NCBI GenBank assembly: GCA_030684575.1
Contig: JAUXVD010000008.1
Coordinates: 248,001-312,000 of the forward strand
Length of the DNA: 64,000 nucleotides
From: Nitrospirota bacterium
GTDB lineage: Bacteria > Nitrospirota > Nitrospiria > Nitrospirales > Nitrospiraceae
Direction of reading: 5' to 3'
Below, one piece after another: positions 11,505 to 60,094 of the stretch (position 1 is the first letter of the stretch; each line of letters begins with the position of its first letter). A program made the position numbers and the translations under genes. The notes beneath the pieces are model-generated. The model saw nothing but the letters and a program-made list of their open reading frames with translations. It was not told the origin of the DNA and made no database searches.

Positions 11505-11582
11505 GTCTGTCTGGTTCATCTGGTTGATTTGGTTTATCTGGTTAGTTTAGTACAACCAAAAAACCAGATGAACCAGATAGAC
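11505..11582. repeat. 9-bp tandem repeat forming an inverted repeat
   Basis: From 11510 the DNA reads as four 9-base units close to TCTGGTTNA (TCTGGTTCA, TCTGGTTGA, TTTGGTTTA, TCTGGTTAG). The complementary sequence returns at 11562-11582, so that 11505-11525 and 11562-11582 form 21-base arms with one mismatch around a 36-base loop. It lies 55 bases after mgtA and could end transcription, but there is no terminal T-run. A related copy lies at 13486-13556. Confidence 0.8.
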
Positions 11583-11663: not shown

Positions 11664-12098
11664 ATGGAGACAAGACCGAAGTCGTATACCTATCACACCG
11701 CGGTGAAATGGACAGAGCAGCGGAAGGGAATCATCTCCTGTTCCGGCAAGCTTGATATTCAAGTTGCGACGCCGCCGGAGTTCAAGGGACACGAGGGCAT
11801 CTGGTCGCCGGAGGATCTCTTCGTCGCGTCTGCCAATATCTGTCTGATGACGACGTTCCTATCGGTGGCGGAGCGGGCAGGTCTGGTCTTTACCTCCTAC
11901 GAGAGCCAGGCTGAAGGAAAGTTGGAATTGGTCGAGGGGAAGTTTCAATTCACGACCATCACGTTAAAGCCAACCATCATGCTCCCAGCCAACGGCGATG
12001 CGACTAAAGCGAAGGAGCTGATCGAGAAAGCCGAGGCGAACTGTCTGATTTCCAATTCGATGAAGGCCAAAGTCAGCTTGGAGCCGACCATCCGATAA
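11664..12098 (+). CDS. OsmC/Ohr family protein
   Basis: OsmC-family proteins reduce organic hydroperoxides or handle reactive sulfur species with two cysteines. Here the 144-residue product has the typical order: an N-terminal beta region (YHTAVKWTEQRKG), SPEDLFVASANICLMTTF with the first cysteine, and NCLISNSMK near the C-terminus with the second. The ATG at 11664 follows AGGGAGAA at good spacing; an in-frame ATG at 11643 has no site. It stands alone between two repeat elements. Peroxide versus persulfide specificity cannot be told; the second OsmC gene at 20225 is clearly divergent from this one. Confidence 0.85.
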   Translation: METRPKSYTYHTAVKWTEQRKGIISCSGKLDIQVATPPEFKGHEGIWSPEDLFVASANICLMTTFLSVAERAGLVFTSYESQAEGKLELVEGKFQFTTITLKPTIMLPANGDATKAKELIEKAEANCLISNSMKAKVSLEPTIR

Positions 12099-12110: not shown

Positions 12111-12280
12111 GGATGGCCCGGTGAGTCCCCTGTGCTCGCGCAACGCGCGGTCGCGGGCTCCCCTCGTTGGACGCGCGCAGTGGGGGACTCATCCGGGCCA
12201 TCCTAGAGCAACGTACACGAGCGAGCTTGGAGGGAGCATTATAAAGTGTGGTCGCTCGATGCGCGCGGTGAAGGATAACT
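12111..12280. repeat. Type II hairpin repeat (with a partial second unit)
   Basis: The arms at 12111-12130 and 12183-12203 are complementary apart from one extra base and enclose the conserved halves GCTCGCGCAACGCGCG (12134-12149) and GTTGGACGCGCGCAG (12166-12180). A second, degenerate half follows, with ACGAGCGAGCTTGGAGGG (12217-12234) and a GGTCGCTCGATGCGCGC core-like segment near 12251. The same core occurs at 52.5 and 59.8-60 kb with different arms. No gene was found between 12099 and 12361. Confidence 0.75.
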
Positions 12281-13556: not shown

Positions 13557-13562
13557 GCTTTC

Positions 13563-13629
13563 GTTGGACGCGCGCAGTGGAAGATCAATCAGCCCCCATC
13601 CCTGAGAGGTGACGAGCGAGCTTGGAGGG
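13563..13629. repeat. Type II repeat, partial copy
   Basis: GTTGGACGCGCGCAGTGG (13563-13580) and ACGAGCGAGCTTGGAGGG (13612-13629) are identical to 12166-12183 and 12217-12234, at nearly the same distance from each other. The two copies are direct repeats on either side of the toxin-antitoxin genes. The following 358 bases to 13987 hold no convincing gene; there is a small hairpin-like CTGAAG/CTTCAG sequence near 13728-13746. Confidence 0.7.
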
Positions 13630-26851: not shown

Positions 26852-27060
26852 CTAGCAGGTTGTTGACAAACAACCAAGCCACTGCAGAAATGCACTTGTC
26901 AGAACAATTGCAAATGCTGGCAGACGTAGTCGCAGGCTGTTCAGAAAGGTCGTCCAGCAAGGCCGCAGCAAGCGGAGAGGCGAAGCGTACTCACGGCAGT
27001 ACGTTGAGCCTCTGTGCGCCGCGGGAACGCCGCTGGGGGCTTTTGTCAACAGCCTGCTAG
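26852..27060. repeat. Type I palindromic repeat, nested copies
   Basis: The outer ends 26852-26870 and 27042-27060 are 19-base complements with one mismatch (CTAGCAGGTTGTTGACAAA on the left). A second unit starts at 26936 with CAGGCTGTTCAGAAAGGTCG and CCAGCAAGGCCGCAGC and shares the same right end, so this looks like one unit with an extra left end. It lies between the receiver remnant and the end of the receiver-kinase gene. Confidence 0.75.
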
Positions 27061-38316: not shown

Positions 38317-38607
38317 GAGAGCCTCTACTGTCGGTGCATGACCTGTCATGCTAAGTGCATCAGCAATGCCAGGTGGCGATTGCCGACGCGACCATGGTAA
38401 CCCCGCAATGGTACGGGAGTCTTGTTTGTGTTGAGAGATCTTGGATTGATCGCACTGGGGCATTACGGGGCAGAGCCGTGGCGTGACACTGTCGCCTCTT
38501 TCCGCATTGGGCGGCAGAGCGGGACTGGCGGGATGGCCGATGCGGACGGAGGTTCGAGGTTTTCTGAAATTCGAATTGCGCCTTTCCCGTGCAGGATACA
38601 ACCGTGA

Positions 38608-38732
38608 CAGGATGCTCAAACAGTTCGTCCAGCAAGGCCGCAGCCGATGAACGCACCGGAGGCGTAGCCTCTGGCTACGATGAGGATGCGTTCAAGGCGA
38701 GAACGACGCTGGCGAACTGTTTCAGCGTCCTG
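38608..38732. repeat. Type I palindromic repeat
   Basis: The ends CAGGATGCTCAAACAGTTCG and its near complement at 38712-38732 enclose CCAGCAAGGCCGCAGC and a GGCGAGAACGACGCTGGCG segment. It lies immediately downstream of the universal stress gene at 38739. Confidence 0.78.
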
Positions 38733-38738
38733 CCGCGC

Positions 38739-39596
38739 TTAACGGACTGCCAGCACCGGACATGCGGCCCGATGGACCAGGCTGTGCGACACGCTGCCGA
38801 GCAGGAAACGTGCGATCCCTCGACGGCTGTGCGACCCCACAATGAGGAGGTCGAATTCGGCCGCACGAGCGGCGATCGTCTGAGCCGGGTCGCCGCTCAA
38901 TACCTGGACGGACACAGTGGAGGAGGGGCCCACCAGCGCGGCGGCCGTCGTCTTGACCAGATCTTCTGCAGAGTGATTCGCGATATCCGCCCAGCGTTCG
39001 AAGCGTGCCATGTTGGAGGGGTCGGCAAGCTGCAGTGACGGGACGACGGTGAGAATCGAGAATTCTATCGGATCGCGGAATGGATGTGCGGTTAACCAGT
39101 CGCGAATCATCTGTGCGTCCTCGCGGCCTTCGAGGGCGATGATGGCACGGCGGATTCTCTTCGGAGGGCCTTTCACAATCAGCGTCGTTCTTGTTCCGTG
39201 GGCCAAGACCCGATGGGAGACGCTGCCGAGCACCAACTCAGCCAGTTTCCCGCGCCCGCGAGCGCCCATCACCACCAGCTCGGCGTCGGCCTTGTCCGCC
39301 TGATCGAGCACGATACGGGCCGGCGATCCGATCTCGCGCACCTGCGTGACGGCGATCCCGTTCGATGGGATTAAGGCGGAGGTCCGTTGGAGTAATTCCT
39401 GGCCTGCATCCATCATCGCCTGTCGAAACTCCTCGTACCCCTGCAGTGCGGCGGCGCCGGCGACAGCTGGATATTCATAGACACCCAAGTCCACCCCATG
39501 CACCAGAGTGATGGTCGTTGGATGAAATAAGAGGAGAGTCTGTTGAACGGCTGAAAATGACTGGTCCGACCAGTCGATTCCAATGGCGATGCGCAT
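38739..39596 (-). CDS. Universal stress protein with two Usp domains (paralogue)
   Basis: The 285-residue product has the same architecture as the protein encoded at 36540-37400, with nucleotide-binding patterns in MGARGRGKLAELVLGSVS and VGSHSRRGIARFLLGSVS. Much of the second half is conserved between them, so they arose by duplication. Type I repeats flank the gene on both sides (38608-38732 and 39625-39746). The start follows an AAAGGAC-like site. Confidence 0.9.
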   Translation of the reverse strand: MRIAIGIDWSDQSFSAVQQTLLLFHPTTITLVHGVDLGVYEYPAVAGAAALQGYEEFRQAMMDAGQELLQRTSALIPSNGIAVTQVREIGSPARIVLDQADKADAELVVMGARGRGKLAELVLGSVSHRVLAHGTRTTLIVKGPPKRIRRAIIALEGREDAQMIRDWLTAHPFRDPIEFSILTVVPSLQLADPSNMARFERWADIANHSAEDLVKTTAAALVGPSSTVSVQVLSGDPAQTIAARAAEFDLLIVGSHSRRGIARFLLGSVSHSLVHRAACPVLAVR

Positions 39597-39624
39597 AGCG
39601 CGGTCCTTTCCTGTCGACGCTTAG

Positions 39625-39746
39625 CAGGATGCTGAAAACGTCCGCCAGCGGCGTTCTCGCTTCACGAAGAGGCTCAACGTACCAACCAGTACGCCTCGCC
39701 TCTTCGCTCGCTGCGGCCTTGCTGGACGGCCTTTTTGAGCATCCTG
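39625..39746. repeat. Type I palindromic repeat
   Basis: The ends CAGGATGCTGAAAACGTCCG and GGACGGCCTTTTTGAGCATC are complementary apart from a few mismatches, around GTTCTCGCTTCACGAAGAGG and CGCCTCTTCGCTCGCTGCGG inner blocks that also pair with each other. This is the clearest example of the type I element in the window. It lies 28 bases upstream of the universal stress gene start. Confidence 0.82.
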
Positions 39747-39823
39747 TGGTTCTTCTAGCCACGGTGCTGCTCGGAACATTTTGGCTATTGTCCTTCTCAT
39801 ACACCGAGTTTTTCCGCAGCCTG

Positions 39824-49368: not shown

Positions 49369-51819
49369 ATGGCCAAGAAACCAGACAGACCCACGAAGTC
49401 CACGGCGCTTCGCCGACAGGCGGAAGAATTCCTCCAGATGACCAAGCACGACGTGGCCGCCATGCCGGTCAAGGACGTGCAGCAGCTCGTGTCTGAACTG
49501 CAAGTGCACCAGATCGAGCTGGAGATGCAGAACGAGGAGCTGCGCCAGACCCAGGCGGAGCTCGGGTCAGCCCGTGACCGCTATGTGGATCTCTACGATT
49601 TTTCGCCCATCGGTTATCTCACCCTGGACAAGGCGGGGACGATTGTGGAGGCCAATCTGAGGGCCGGGACCCTGCTCGGCATCGACCGGAGAGCGCTGCT
49701 CGGACAACCGCTCGCGCGAATGCTCGCAGCCGGTCATGAGGTCACGTTCCGTCGGCATTGGCAGGAGGTCTTGACGAGCGGGAGGCGGCAGAGCTGTGAG
49801 GTGCTGCTCCGGAACGAGAAGGGCCCGCCGCGCTGGGTCTATCTGGAGAGCCTGGCAGTTCACGAGGAGTCCGGTCCCCTCACCCATTGGCGGACGGCGC
49901 TGCTGGACGTGAGCGATCGCAAGCTGGCCGAGCAGGCGATGGAGGCGCAGCGGGCGCAGCTCGAAGGGGTCATTTCGTCGGCGATGGATGCCATCATCAC
50001 TGTGGACGAGGAAGAGCATGTGGTGGTCTTCAACCGCACGGCAGAATCCATGTTTCTCTGCCAGGCCGCCGACTCGATCGGGCAGCCACTCGACCGGTTC
50101 ATTCCGGAACGGTTCAGGCAGGCGCACCCTGGTCATATGCGCGACTTCGCCCTGACACAAGTGACTTCCCGTTCGATGGGCCAGTCCGGCAACTTATTCG
50201 GTCTGCGATCCAACGGAGAGGAATTTCCCATCGAGGCCTCCATCTCTCATGTCCTGGTCGGCGACAAGATGCTCTTCACCGTCATTCTGCGCGATGTCAC
50301 CGCGCGGAAGCAGGCGGAGCAGGAGCAGGTCCGGCTCATCGAGGACCTGACCCGGTCGCAAGAACACTTTCAAACTCTCTTCAACTGGGTTCCCTCCGCT
50401 GTCGGGATCAGCACATTGGCGGAAGGGCGGTTTTGCGATGTGAATGATGCGTTTAGCCGACTGACCGGGTACGTTAGAGAGGAAGTGATCGGTCGAACGA
50501 CCTTGGAATTGGGGTTGTGGGCCGATCCATCGGAACGTGCATCTGTGCTCCGGGAAATCCAGGAACAGGGCCATCTCCACAATCGGGAAGGGCTGCTCCG
50601 GACCAAGTCCGGAGAGATTCGCTCTCTCATGATCTCCGTCGCGTCGATCCGGCTCGGGTCCACCCCTTCCCTGATTTATCTGGCCCATGACATTACCGAA
50701 CGCAAGCGGGGGGAGGACGCGTTGCAGGCCAGTGAGGTCTTTACCCGCGCGGTCCTGAACTCACTCTCCGCGCCTATCTGCGTATTGGACAGGGACGGGG
50801 TCATCCTCAAGACCAACGACGCCTGGCAAGCGTTCGCAGGATGGGCGTCGAATTGCCCGCTCATTGGTGCCGATATCGGACAGCATTATGGTGAAGTGTG
50901 CAGGCTGGCACTTGCCGATGCAGCCGCGGAGCAAGAACATATTCTCGGCGGCATTCAAGCCGTATTAACGGGCAGTCGACCGGGTTTCAGCACGGAATAT
51001 GCCTGTCATGTGCTGGAGGACGAGCGCTGGTTCCAGTTGCGGGTGACCCCGTTGAAAGCGTCGAAGGGCGCTGTGGTGTCGCATACGGATATCTCACCGC
51101 GAGTCAGCATGGGGGTAGCGTTGGAGCAACAGTTGCTCCTGCTCAATCACAAACAAGCGGAGCTGGAATCCCTGACGGGGAAGCTGATCGGTGCCCAGGA
51201 ACAGGAGCGCCGACGGATCGCGCGAGAGCTGCACGACGATTTCAATCAACGATTGGCGGCGCTGGCCGTCGAACTCGAGACCTTAGAGCGTACGCCCAAT
51301 GCCGTCCCTACGCCAGTCGTTCAGCAACTCATCTCGGTGCGGGACCATGTCGGGCAGCTCTCCGATGATCTGCACGATATGGCGTACCGGCTGCATCCGT
51401 CGTTGCTCGAACATGTCGGACTGGAAGTCGCCGCGCGAGACCACGTGCTCGAGTTCACGAAGCGGACGGGGCTGCCCGTGACATGGACCGCGCGAGAGGT
51501 CCCGGAAGCGCTCGCGCCGGAGGTGGCCACCAATTTGTTTCGCGTGATGCAGGAGAGTCTGCAAAATGTGTTCAAACATGCCAGGGCGACCGAAGTGACG
51601 GTGACGCTGAGCGGTTCATCCAAAGGGGTCGGTCTGTCGGTGCGCGATAACGGTCAGGGGTTCGACCTTAAGGGCAAGGATGCTCGCATGAAAGGAATCG
51701 GGTTGGTGAGCATGCAAGAGCGTATGCGTCTGATGGGCGGTTTTCTCCGAATCCATTCCCTCCCAGCGGATGGCACGACAGTCTGCGCCTGGATTCCTCG
51801 TGCTCAGGAGGGCACATGA
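49369..51819 (+). CDS. Multi-PAS sensor histidine kinase (HisKA_3)
   Basis: The 816 residues start with the same roughly 70-residue N-terminal region and first PAS domain as the preceding gene, then add further PAS domains (about 200-310, 330-450, 460-570), a HisKA_3 domain with IARELHDDFNQRLAALAVE (histidine near 620) and a HATPase domain with VRDNGQGFDLKG. No membrane helix is seen. Its stop overlaps the start of the NarL-type regulator (ATGA), which makes that the likely partner. Confidence 0.9.
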   Translation: MAKKPDRPTKSTALRRQAEEFLQMTKHDVAAMPVKDVQQLVSELQVHQIELEMQNEELRQTQAELGSARDRYVDLYDFSPIGYLTLDKAGTIVEANLRAGTLLGIDRRALLGQPLARMLAAGHEVTFRRHWQEVLTSGRRQSCEVLLRNEKGPPRWVYLESLAVHEESGPLTHWRTALLDVSDRKLAEQAMEAQRAQLEGVISSAMDAIITVDEEEHVVVFNRTAESMFLCQAADSIGQPLDRFIPERFRQAHPGHMRDFALTQVTSRSMGQSGNLFGLRSNGEEFPIEASISHVLVGDKMLFTVILRDVTARKQAEQEQVRLIEDLTRSQEHFQTLFNWVPSAVGISTLAEGRFCDVNDAFSRLTGYVREEVIGRTTLELGLWADPSERASVLREIQEQGHLHNREGLLRTKSGEIRSLMISVASIRLGSTPSLIYLAHDITERKRGEDALQASEVFTRAVLNSLSAPICVLDRDGVILKTNDAWQAFAGWASNCPLIGADIGQHYGEVCRLALADAAAEQEHILGGIQAVLTGSRPGFSTEYACHVLEDERWFQLRVTPLKASKGAVVSHTDISPRVSMGVALEQQLLLLNHKQAELESLTGKLIGAQEQERRRIARELHDDFNQRLAALAVELETLERTPNAVPTPVVQQLISVRDHVGQLSDDLHDMAYRLHPSLLEHVGLEVAARDHVLEFTKRTGLPVTWTAREVPEALAPEVATNLFRVMQESLQNVFKHARATEVTVTLSGSSKGVGLSVRDNGQGFDLKGKDARMKGIGLVSMQERMRLMGGFLRIHSLPADGTTVCAWIPRAQEGT

Positions 51820-52463
51820 AGAGGCCGCGCGTCCTCATGGCCGACGACCATTCGCTGATCCTCGCCGGCTTACGGAAGTTGGTGGAGGTGGACTGCGACG
51901 TGGTGGGGACGGTGGAGGACGGGCGGGCGTTAGTGGAGGCGGCGCAGCAGCTGCGGCCGGATCTGATTCTCCTGGACATCTCGATGCCGCTCTTAAACGG
52001 GCTCGAAGCGGCGAGGAAACTCCGCACTCTTGCGCCGGACTGCAAGCTCATCTTCCTCACGATGCATGCCAGCCCGACCTATGCGGCCGAAGCGTTCCAG
52101 GCCGGGGCCTCCGGCTATCTCCTCAAACGGTCTGCGGCCTCGGAACTCGGTCTGGCGATCGCGTCTGTCCTTCAAGGCCAACATTATCTGACGCCGCTGC
52201 TCACGAAAGAGGTGTTGGCCTCGGTTCTCAAGCCCTCCACCGGCGAGCGAGGCAAGCCTGTCACCGGCGCGCTCACCGCGCGCCAGCGCGAAGTGTTGCA
52301 GCTCGTCGCCGAAGGCCATGGCACGAAGGAGATCGCCACGATCCTCAGCATCTCGGTCAAAACGGTGGAGTTCCATAAGTCCCGCATCATGCAGCATCTG
52401 GATCTTCACACCACGGCCGATCTGACCAAGTATGCGGTTACGCACGGCATCACCGGCCTCTGA
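51816..52463 (+). CDS. NarL/FixJ-type response regulator
   Basis: The 215 residues hold a receiver domain with the DD pair (MADDHSLI), the phosphorylated aspartate in LILLDISMP and the conserved lysine in YLLKRS, then a LuxR-type DNA-binding domain with LTARQREVLQLVAEGHGTK and VKTVEFHKSRIM. It begins within the stop of the HisKA_3 kinase gene, so the two are co-translated. Its target promoters are unknown. A composite repeat element starts 5 bases after the stop. Confidence 0.93.
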   Translation: MKRPRVLMADDHSLILAGLRKLVEVDCDVVGTVEDGRALVEAAQQLRPDLILLDISMPLLNGLEAARKLRTLAPDCKLIFLTMHASPTYAAEAFQAGASGYLLKRSAASELGLAIASVLQGQHYLTPLLTKEVLASVLKPSTGERGKPVTGALTARQREVLQLVAEGHGTKEIATILSISVKTVEFHKSRIMQHLDLHTTADLTKYAVTHGITGL

Positions 52464-52467
52464 CCGG

Positions 52468-52746
52468 CAGGATGCTGAAACGGGGGCGGGGTAGCTGGGA
52501 CGATCCCTGTGCTCGCGCAACGCGCGGCCTCCGAAGGATGCGAAGGGTGGCCTGGCCGTCCTCCTGCTCGCGGAACGCGCACGATAAGAATGTGCTCGTT
52601 CGACGCGCGCAATCGAGGATCGACCAGGCCGCCCTTGAAAATGAAATGGAGGAGTTGGAAGACGCGCGCAGTGGGAATCATCCCAGCCACCCCTTAGTGG
52701 TGATAGAAGGGCGCGGCCTTGCTGGACGGCCTGTTTGAGCATCCTG
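52468..52746. repeat. Composite repeat: type II hairpins nested inside type I ends
   Basis: The outer ends CAGGATGCTGAAAC (52468-52481) and the right end GGCCTTGCTGGACGGCC to GCATCCTG are type I. Inside lie arms 52493-52507 and 52673-52687 (near complements) around the core GCTCGCGCAACGCGCG (52511-52526), and inside these a second pair of arms, 52543-52563 and 52615-52637, around another core (52566-52580 and 52595-52610). Three levels of palindromes are nested. Confidence 0.8.
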
Positions 52747-52901
52747 CTTCTCCTCAGTTCTTTCACCTTCCTCTATCCCTCATGACCCGTAGCGCTAGTA
52801 CGATTTTTTCGCGGTGCCAGGGTTCTTCCTAGTTCCGCCGCTTCCCTAAGCCGGCTATGCTCACAAGAGGTTATCATTGTGAGAGAAGAGGACGTCACGC
52901 G

Positions 52902-59756: not shown

Positions 59757-60094
59757 CCCTCGCAGGATCGACTAAAAGGATGCGCTCGCGGGGTTATGAG
59801 GTCAAGGGCGGAAGATCGGGAGCGGTCAGCCGCCCTTCTTGCTCGCAGAGCCCCCACGATAAAACTGTGGTCGCTCGATGCGCGCAGTGAAGGGCAGCCT
59901 CGACCGCTCCCTTTAGCAGATGTTTGGAGCAGAGGAGGAGGGTAGCCCGTTAGTCTCCTGTGCTCGCGCAACGCGCGCATGACCTTGTTTCCGTCCTGAT
60001 TTCGGCCTCCGTCCCTCGTGGAGGGTTTACTGCTTCCTTACCAGCTCTCACCTTGGTAAGCTTTTTTCAGGGCGTATGTATTGATGACATCTGA
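59757..60094. repeat. Gap with type II hairpin repeat and half copy
   Basis: Arms 59818-59838 and 59889-59911 are complementary apart from a short insertion, around the right core half TCGCTCGATGCGCGCAGTG (59871-59889). A separate left half, GCTCGCGCAACGCGCG, follows at 59962-59977. No gene was found in this 338-base stretch, which should also hold promoters for the divergent TPR and AsmA-like genes. Confidence 0.7.

Follow-up and report, generated by a model that had tools for sequence, protein, structure and literature searches.

The type II elements described here form a family of imperfect hairpins of about 95 nt, in which a rigid 47-nt core is flanked on either side by arms of about 22 nt. 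Most copies begin near a stop codon in sense orientation, from about 15 nt ahead of it to 20 nt past it. The elements were analysed starting from a 64,000-nt stretch of DNA (the window), which belongs to G000, a Nitrospira-group genome of 3.79 Mb. With confidence that is about evenly balanced, we interpret them as Nitrospiraceae-specific, REP-like structured intergenic repeats that would act as a hairpin at the mRNA 3′ end. The original prediction described a constant core with locus-specific complementary arms and proposed a mobile or structure-dependent element; it missed the sense placement at stop codons, the conserved versions of individual sites, and both routes by which the arms come to differ.

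Folding of all copies gave a single design. From the arm inward, it consists of TGC, a T·C mismatch, CGCG, and a GA bulge on the 3′ side, followed toward the apex by (C/G)AACG, a C·T mismatch, and an apical stem-loop. The core is 47 nt long in 319 of 326 copies. In an alignment of 40 representatives, the conserved irregularities are the T28·C68 mismatch, the G62A63 bulge, and the C38·T56 mismatch, and these core defects are kept in almost every copy. The core pairs themselves covary: pair 33–61 is C–G in 21 and G–C in 18 of the 40 sequences, and pairs 30–66, 32–64, and 35–59 switch as well. By sequence, the arms sort into 99 families, of which 70 are singletons, and multi-copy families (63, 23, 23, and 20 members) are dispersed. 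Arm mismatches and bulges favour positions 6–10 and 15–17 from the core. Avoidance of RNase III by such spaced defects was considered as an explanation and is not general, because some copies, for example L018, have approximately 25 uninterrupted pairs.

The copy catalogue was assembled from genome stretches chosen around core matches and from searches. Complementary arms were found in 326 of its 356 copies, and not the mostly non-complementary arms that would speak against the original prediction. The median arm-pairing score was 29.0 within a copy and 12.5 when arms were swapped between families (p ~1e-40). In a gapless alignment of the 40 representatives, 231 cells showed two-sided changes versus 101.6 ± 8.5 in shuffles, and the covariation score was 0.417 in register versus 0.10–0.26 when slid; because the representatives were picked among copies with pairing arms, these values are best read beside the swapped-arm test, which keeps the non-pairing copies. 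The covariation check proposed at the outset, run with shuffle and register controls, thus returned a strong signal that collapses on sliding, which supports a dependence on structure and a core that stays constant while the complementary arms are specific to each locus. The arms change fully yet still match, which indicates that evolution keeps the shape rather than the sequence.

If selection acted on an RNA stem alone, G·U pairs would be favoured. On the sense strand, the arms outside the two preferred defect positions contain 38 G·U and 50 A·C, counts that are equally compatible with a constraint at the DNA level or one neutral to strand. Since G·U does not exceed A·C, a DNA-level constraint, through single-strand DNA mobility or templated correction, is kept as a rival. 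The per-family counts of 157 A·C versus 57 G·U would point to an RNA from the antisense strand, but this inference was dropped, because the excess is confined to the two arm defect positions. No strand bias was found at four-fold sites. A role of the arms as guides to other genes was also rejected, as near matches in approximately 435 kb of unmasked own genome showed no clear excess. The 109 arms gave 68 matches at ≤4 mismatches, versus 51 for reversed and 48 for shuffled arms, and the mean best mismatch was 4.50 for real, 4.70 for reversed, and 4.61 for shuffled arms.

In G000, the left core half matches 86 times at ≤2 mismatches, versus 10 times for a reversed control; this count and the within-copy arm pairing are far beyond chance. 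From 40 representatives of the arm families, a covariance model was built that found at least 96 matches in G000 and at least 92–128 in three large congeners, these counts being lower bounds because 150 candidates were scored per genome. Of the 32 genomes of the genus, 31 carry the strict core pattern. Among 396 genomes sampled across the phylum, 47 had it, belonging to 7 of 169 genera, all of the same family, and no genome outside that family did. The core is therefore family-wide and not found only in the window, the latter being the outcome that would speak against the original prediction. Among the named carriers are ‘Candidatus Nitrospira defluvii’ and Nitrospira lenta MAGs. The reduced congener G029 (1.8 Mb, 99% complete) yielded 16 model matches, and its purC and sucC copies look partly decayed.

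Table 1. Features of the focal nested site and of the other type II copies and fragments in the window (positions of the window).
Feature	Position	Strand	Basis
Type II hairpin, intact; arms 12111-12130 and 12182-12203, core 12133-12179	12111-12203	+	Sequence, folding
Orphan right core half (GTGGTCGCTCGATGCGCGCGGTG), downstream of the 12111 element	12248-12270	+	Sequence, core-half matches
Orphan right core half (GCTTTCGTTGGACGCGCGCAGTG)	13557-13579	+	Core-half matches
Upstream gene of 215 aa, presumed response regulator, stop TGA 52461-52463	51816-52463	+	ORF list, sequence
Type I left end GCAGGATGCTGAAACGGG, stop codon 3 nt upstream	52467-52484	+	Inverted-repeat search, sequence
Outer type II hairpin, left arm GGGGTAGCTGGGACGATCCC	52488-52507	+	Sequence, folding
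Outer type II hairpin, left core half TGCTCGCGCAACGCGCG	52510-52526	+	Sequence, core-half matches
Inner type II hairpin, left arm AAGGGTGGCCTGGCCGTCCTC	52543-52563	+	Sequence, folding
Inner type II hairpin, intact 47-nt core, CGCGGAACG / CGTTCGACGCG subfamily, loop GATAAGAAT	52565-52611	+	Folding
Inner type II hairpin, right arm GAGGATCGACCAGGCCGCCCTT	52615-52636	+	Sequence, folding
Tail GAAAATGAAATGGAGGAGTTGGAA travelling with the inner unit	52637-52660	+	Comparison with other nested sites
Outer type II hairpin, right core half GACGCGCGCA, without the CTCGTTG part	52661-52670	+	Sequence
Outer type II hairpin, right arm GGGAATCATCCCAGCCACCCC	52673-52693	+	Sequence
Type I right end CCTGTTTGAGCATCCTGC	52730-52747	+	Inverted-repeat search
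Type II hairpin with arms 59818-59839 and 59889-59911 around core 59840-59886 (third core subfamily, GAGCCCCCACGATAAAACTGTGGTCGCTC)	59818-59911	+	
Orphan left core half TGCTCGCGCAACGCGCG without right half (GCTCGCGCAACGCGCG at 59962)	59961-59977	+	Sequence

At the focal site of the window (52467–52747; Table 1), the coordinates bear out the predicted nesting, in which a type II hairpin, bracketed by type I ends, encloses another type II hairpin that has arms of its own. The bracketing type I ends are 18 nt long and 89% complementary. The outer hairpin lacks its CTCGTTG segment where the inner unit is inserted, and the inner core corresponds to the covariance-model match G000:C8:300542-300637. 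The gene upstream, which we take to encode a response regulator, was judged by eye to contain a LuxR-type helix-turn-helix. The copy at 12111–12203 agrees exactly with its earlier description and lies 12 nt past the stop codon (12096–12098) of an OsmC-like gene. For the copy at 59818–59911, the complementary arms were confirmed, as was the right core half GATGCGCGCAGTG, with one mismatch; its left half reads GCTCGCAGAGCCCCCA instead of the expected GCTCGCGCAACGCGCG and represents a different core subfamily. The window also holds other palindromic repeats. An inverted repeat beginning with GTCTGTCTGGTTCATCTGGTT (11505–11582, 81% complementary), located just upstream of the OsmC-like gene, is of the TCTGGTT palindrome kind that replaces hairpin apices elsewhere, and the CTAGCAGGTTGTTGACAAA / TTTGTCAACAGCCTGCTAG repeats at 26852–27060 make up a further family.

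The distance from the stop codon to the left arm peaks between −10 and +10 nt. A copy was counted as near a stop when the stop codon of a long sense ORF lay ≤60 nt upstream of the left arm or ≤12 nt inside it. By this definition, 170 of 286 testable copies from many species were near a sense stop, versus 30 in a mirror-image test. Within G000, 44 copies have a sense upstream gene, and 31 of these start ≤25 nt from its stop; among copies with an antisense upstream gene, 1 of 27 does. The copies are often inside operons, for instance between atpD and atpC, or behind purC, sucC, nuoCD, glyS, and ribBA; the gene names are those that we presume from our own reading of the translations. In longer intergenic regions, many copies are found without an adjacent sense stop codon.

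Individual sites are occupied across the genus. At purC, 26 of 30 congeners yielded an element, as did 22 of 29 at sucC and 19 of 29 at atpD, the last besides one truncated and one inverted copy. The inverted copy (L104, between atpD and atpC of G003) has its core turned around between the arms and is the sole ortholog at this position with the opposite core orientation. Elements can be 99–100% identical between species whose flanking genes are 83–89% identical, and this identity falls off within approximately 60 nt. At sucC, where the identity peak is limited to roughly −60 to +120 nt, element identity is uncorrelated with gene identity (r = 0.08). The elements of G002, G020, and G024 are identical there and that of G000 is one base off, with flanking genes 83–91% identical, and G000 and its close relative G027 (~92% nucleotide identity) carry different elements. 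Horizontal exchange might account for this pattern, and differential loss from an ancestral tandem combined with strong conservation is an equally good explanation; such loss is possible since G031 carries both sucC versions in tandem (L285, whose contig ends inside the second version).

The arms thus differ both by compensatory change at the same site and by wholesale replacement of the hairpin. The former is represented at sucC by GGTACGGGG...CCCCGTACC in G026 versus GGTGCGGGG...CCCCGCACC in G015 and G008. As for the latter, the hairpin between atpD and atpC is replaced by GTGAAACGTGAAAGG-kind palindromes in relatives, that at the thiG site by type I elements or CTCAGCACT palindromes, and that of the focal site by the unrelated palindrome GCATATGGCGTATGGCTA... 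in the close relative G027. Unrelated long palindromes built from short tandem words (GTGAAACG, GTGCTGA, TATGGCTA, TCTGGTT) occupy the same 3′-end positions in other species, at L083, L099, L100, L101, L106, L301, L306, L321, and the G027 counterpart of the focal site.

The nested arrangement of the focal site results from the precise insertion of one hairpin into the apical loop of another, and it recurs elsewhere. At the OsmC site, L063 is intact, and L061 is the same element holding a second one exactly between GGAAC and GTTCG, in place of the 21-nt apical hairpin. The junction GGAAC/AGNGG is recurrent among nested copies. A second recurrent junction, after an apical GAAGG, is the one at the focal site, and tails related to GAAAATGAAATGGAGGAGTTGGAA come after the inner units at other nested sites. 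Full nesting was observed in 23 of 326 copies, and 87 more adjoin one outer half. Comparison of L020 with G007 revealed an apex swapped for a TCTGGTT-type palindrome. These precise apex insertions and the apex replacement indicate that the hairpin tips are exchange points.

In the interpretation that we favour, the hairpin in the mRNA would provide a REP-like barrier just behind the terminating ribosome. Such a barrier might guard the upstream transcript from 3′ exonucleases, or tune translation termination and the expression ratio of operon neighbours, or both. The core would be the part that is recognised by a partner or required for the shape, and the arms would need only to pair. In favour of this interpretation are the covariation and arm pairing, the placement at stop codons, the conserved versions of single sites, and the REP precedents. 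Speaking against it are the missing surplus of G·U over A·C outside the preferred defect positions, the inverted core of L104, and the many copies in longer intergenic regions that have no sense stop codon beside them. New copies would probably arise when a DNA copy of a hairpin is joined into the opened tip of another, as the precise apex insertions suggest, and the arms would afterwards drift by compensatory change or be swapped along with the whole hairpin. A further reading, which we consider rather doubtful, is that the elements make up a family-wide set of portable stop-codon hairpins: a putative factor would read the rigid 47-nt apex and install or exchange hairpins at gene 3′ ends and at hairpin tips, so that about 100 genes per genome would be capped. 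The caps would be interchangeable and individually conserved, with arms free to vary while pairing.

Possible, if unlikely, is that the elements are selfish mobile DNA hairpins, spreading as folded single-stranded DNA via a putative core-recognising enzyme of host or mobile origin. Gene 3′ ends would then be merely tolerated or preferred landing sites, and arm pairing would serve transposition, not the host. The dispersed multi-copy arm families together with the singletons, the precise apex insertions, and the lack of G·U enrichment over A·C are all consistent with this. The conserved mismatches and bulge of the core also resemble the needs of single-strand transposases; a bulge in REP is required by TnpAREP (PMC8266576). 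The companion type I element adds support through a clean empty site at window 39596, where the intergenic region spans 227 nt (39596–39823) in the window, versus 24 nt in G027 and 27 nt in G028. Type II sites in relatives, by comparison, mostly hold another hairpin. Simple empty sites for type II alone are rare; the thiG site lacks any hairpin in L308, L309, L313, L314, and L319. The mobility proposed at the outset is partly supported, by the dispersed copies, the multi-copy arm families, and the filled/unfilled pair L061 and L063, and not by a mobilising gene: no such enzyme was found when the Y1 transposase family (PF01797) was examined in 32 genomes, 13 of which have no match to it, including the copy-rich G019, G026, G027, G028, and G030, and no target-site duplication was recognised. 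Also opposed to a purely selfish nature are the near-exclusive sense orientation beside stop codons, the long retention at purC, sucC, and atpD across the genus, and the conservation of elements beyond that of their flanking genes.

Templated correction, in which replication copies one arm from the other (quasi-palindrome correction, template switching), would generate pairing without functional selection, and the same strand switching at the tips would yield the nested insertions and the swaps. The balance of G·U and A·C outside the fixed positions is expected from such a process, as are the replacement of apices by unrelated palindromes (L020 versus G007), the inverted core of L104, and the similar behaviour of several unrelated palindrome types in these genomes. 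However, the core mismatches and bulge are conserved, not corrected, in almost every copy. In G029, the partly decayed copies at purC and sucC argue for lost selection, and the near-identity of whole elements between species is left unexplained. We regard templated correction as an improbable account.

Ordinary REP/BIME elements with a REP-associated (RAYT) transposase are a very improbable explanation, although they too are high-copy intergenic palindromes with an internal bulge, often near stop codons. The GTAG motif is not conserved in type II elements: no conserved tetranucleotide was found at the outer arm ends in the 40-representative alignment, nor just outside the arms in the copies listed. 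The stems are twice as long, and the arms are unalignable between copies, whereas REP stems are conserved (PMC8266576). An association with REP/RAYT was rejected because several near-complete genomes with many copies, G019, G026, G027, G028, and G030 among others, lack PF01797. Intrinsic transcription terminators, which would likewise be strong hairpins directly behind stop codons, are hardly credible and were rejected, as no U-tract is present (T makes up 22% of the 12 nt past the hairpin, and 23 of 326 copies have a TTTT) and many copies lie between co-directional operon genes, for example atpD and atpC.

Nitrospira are major nitrifiers. If the favoured interpretation is true, many Nitrospira genes, including those of the ATP synthase, succinyl-CoA ligase, and purine synthesis operons, would end in an undescribed class of hairpin. 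The constant apex and freely changing paired arms would also make an old question testable, namely whether bacterial palindromic repeats are selfish DNA or parts of mRNAs, because copies differ independently in pairing, core, orientation, and distance from the stop codon.

The attC sites of integrons combine conserved short boxes with locus-variable complementary stems. Their conserved boxes lie at the outer ends, whereas type II elements have a conserved apex, and no gene-cassette arrangement was seen. The companion type I repeats (CAGGATGCTGAAAA...TTTTGAGCATCCTG) also begin directly at stop codons, and their constant inner core, CTCAACGTA...TACGCCT, lies between arms that vary and are complementary in part (93 inner cores; examples at window 39625–39746 and 38600–38740, and at the thiG sites L301–L324). 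They share the design of type II, but are unrelated in sequence and have constant outer ends, and their arm pairing is weaker (median 7.75 versus 3.5 when swapped). No Rfam match was obtained at gathering score in the window, and no description of the Nitrospira family was found in a search of the papers accessible to us. Short dispersed palindromes are known as a kind; the combination of a rigid apex, free-but-paired arms, hairpin-in-hairpin insertion, and occurrence within the sample in Nitrospiraceae alone matches no Rfam family in that scan.

REPs are 20–50 nt long, with a conserved stem and GTAG, and are thought to be moved by TnpAREP (PMC8266576). In E. coli, REPs are reported to stabilise mRNA, and hairpins ≤15 nt from the stop codon to cause ribosome stalling (PMC12306157). 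Like REP / PU-BIME and REPINs, type II elements are short palindromes that occur between genes in high copy number, have conserved irregularities in the stem, and often lie ≤15 nt past a stop codon. Unlike REPs, they are approximately 95 nt long with a fixed 47-nt core and locus-specific covarying arms, and Y1 transposases are missing from many of their carriers. They also resemble ERIC, RUP, and the 92 stem-loop families of an earlier survey (PMC2267715), in which no Nitrospira genome is mentioned, in being repeated intergenic stem-loops that are foldable in mRNA and have proposed effects on neighbouring genes. All these families are defined by full-length sequence similarity, whereas half of a type II element is unshared between copies and only its pairing is conserved; sequence-based repeat finders would miss half of such elements.
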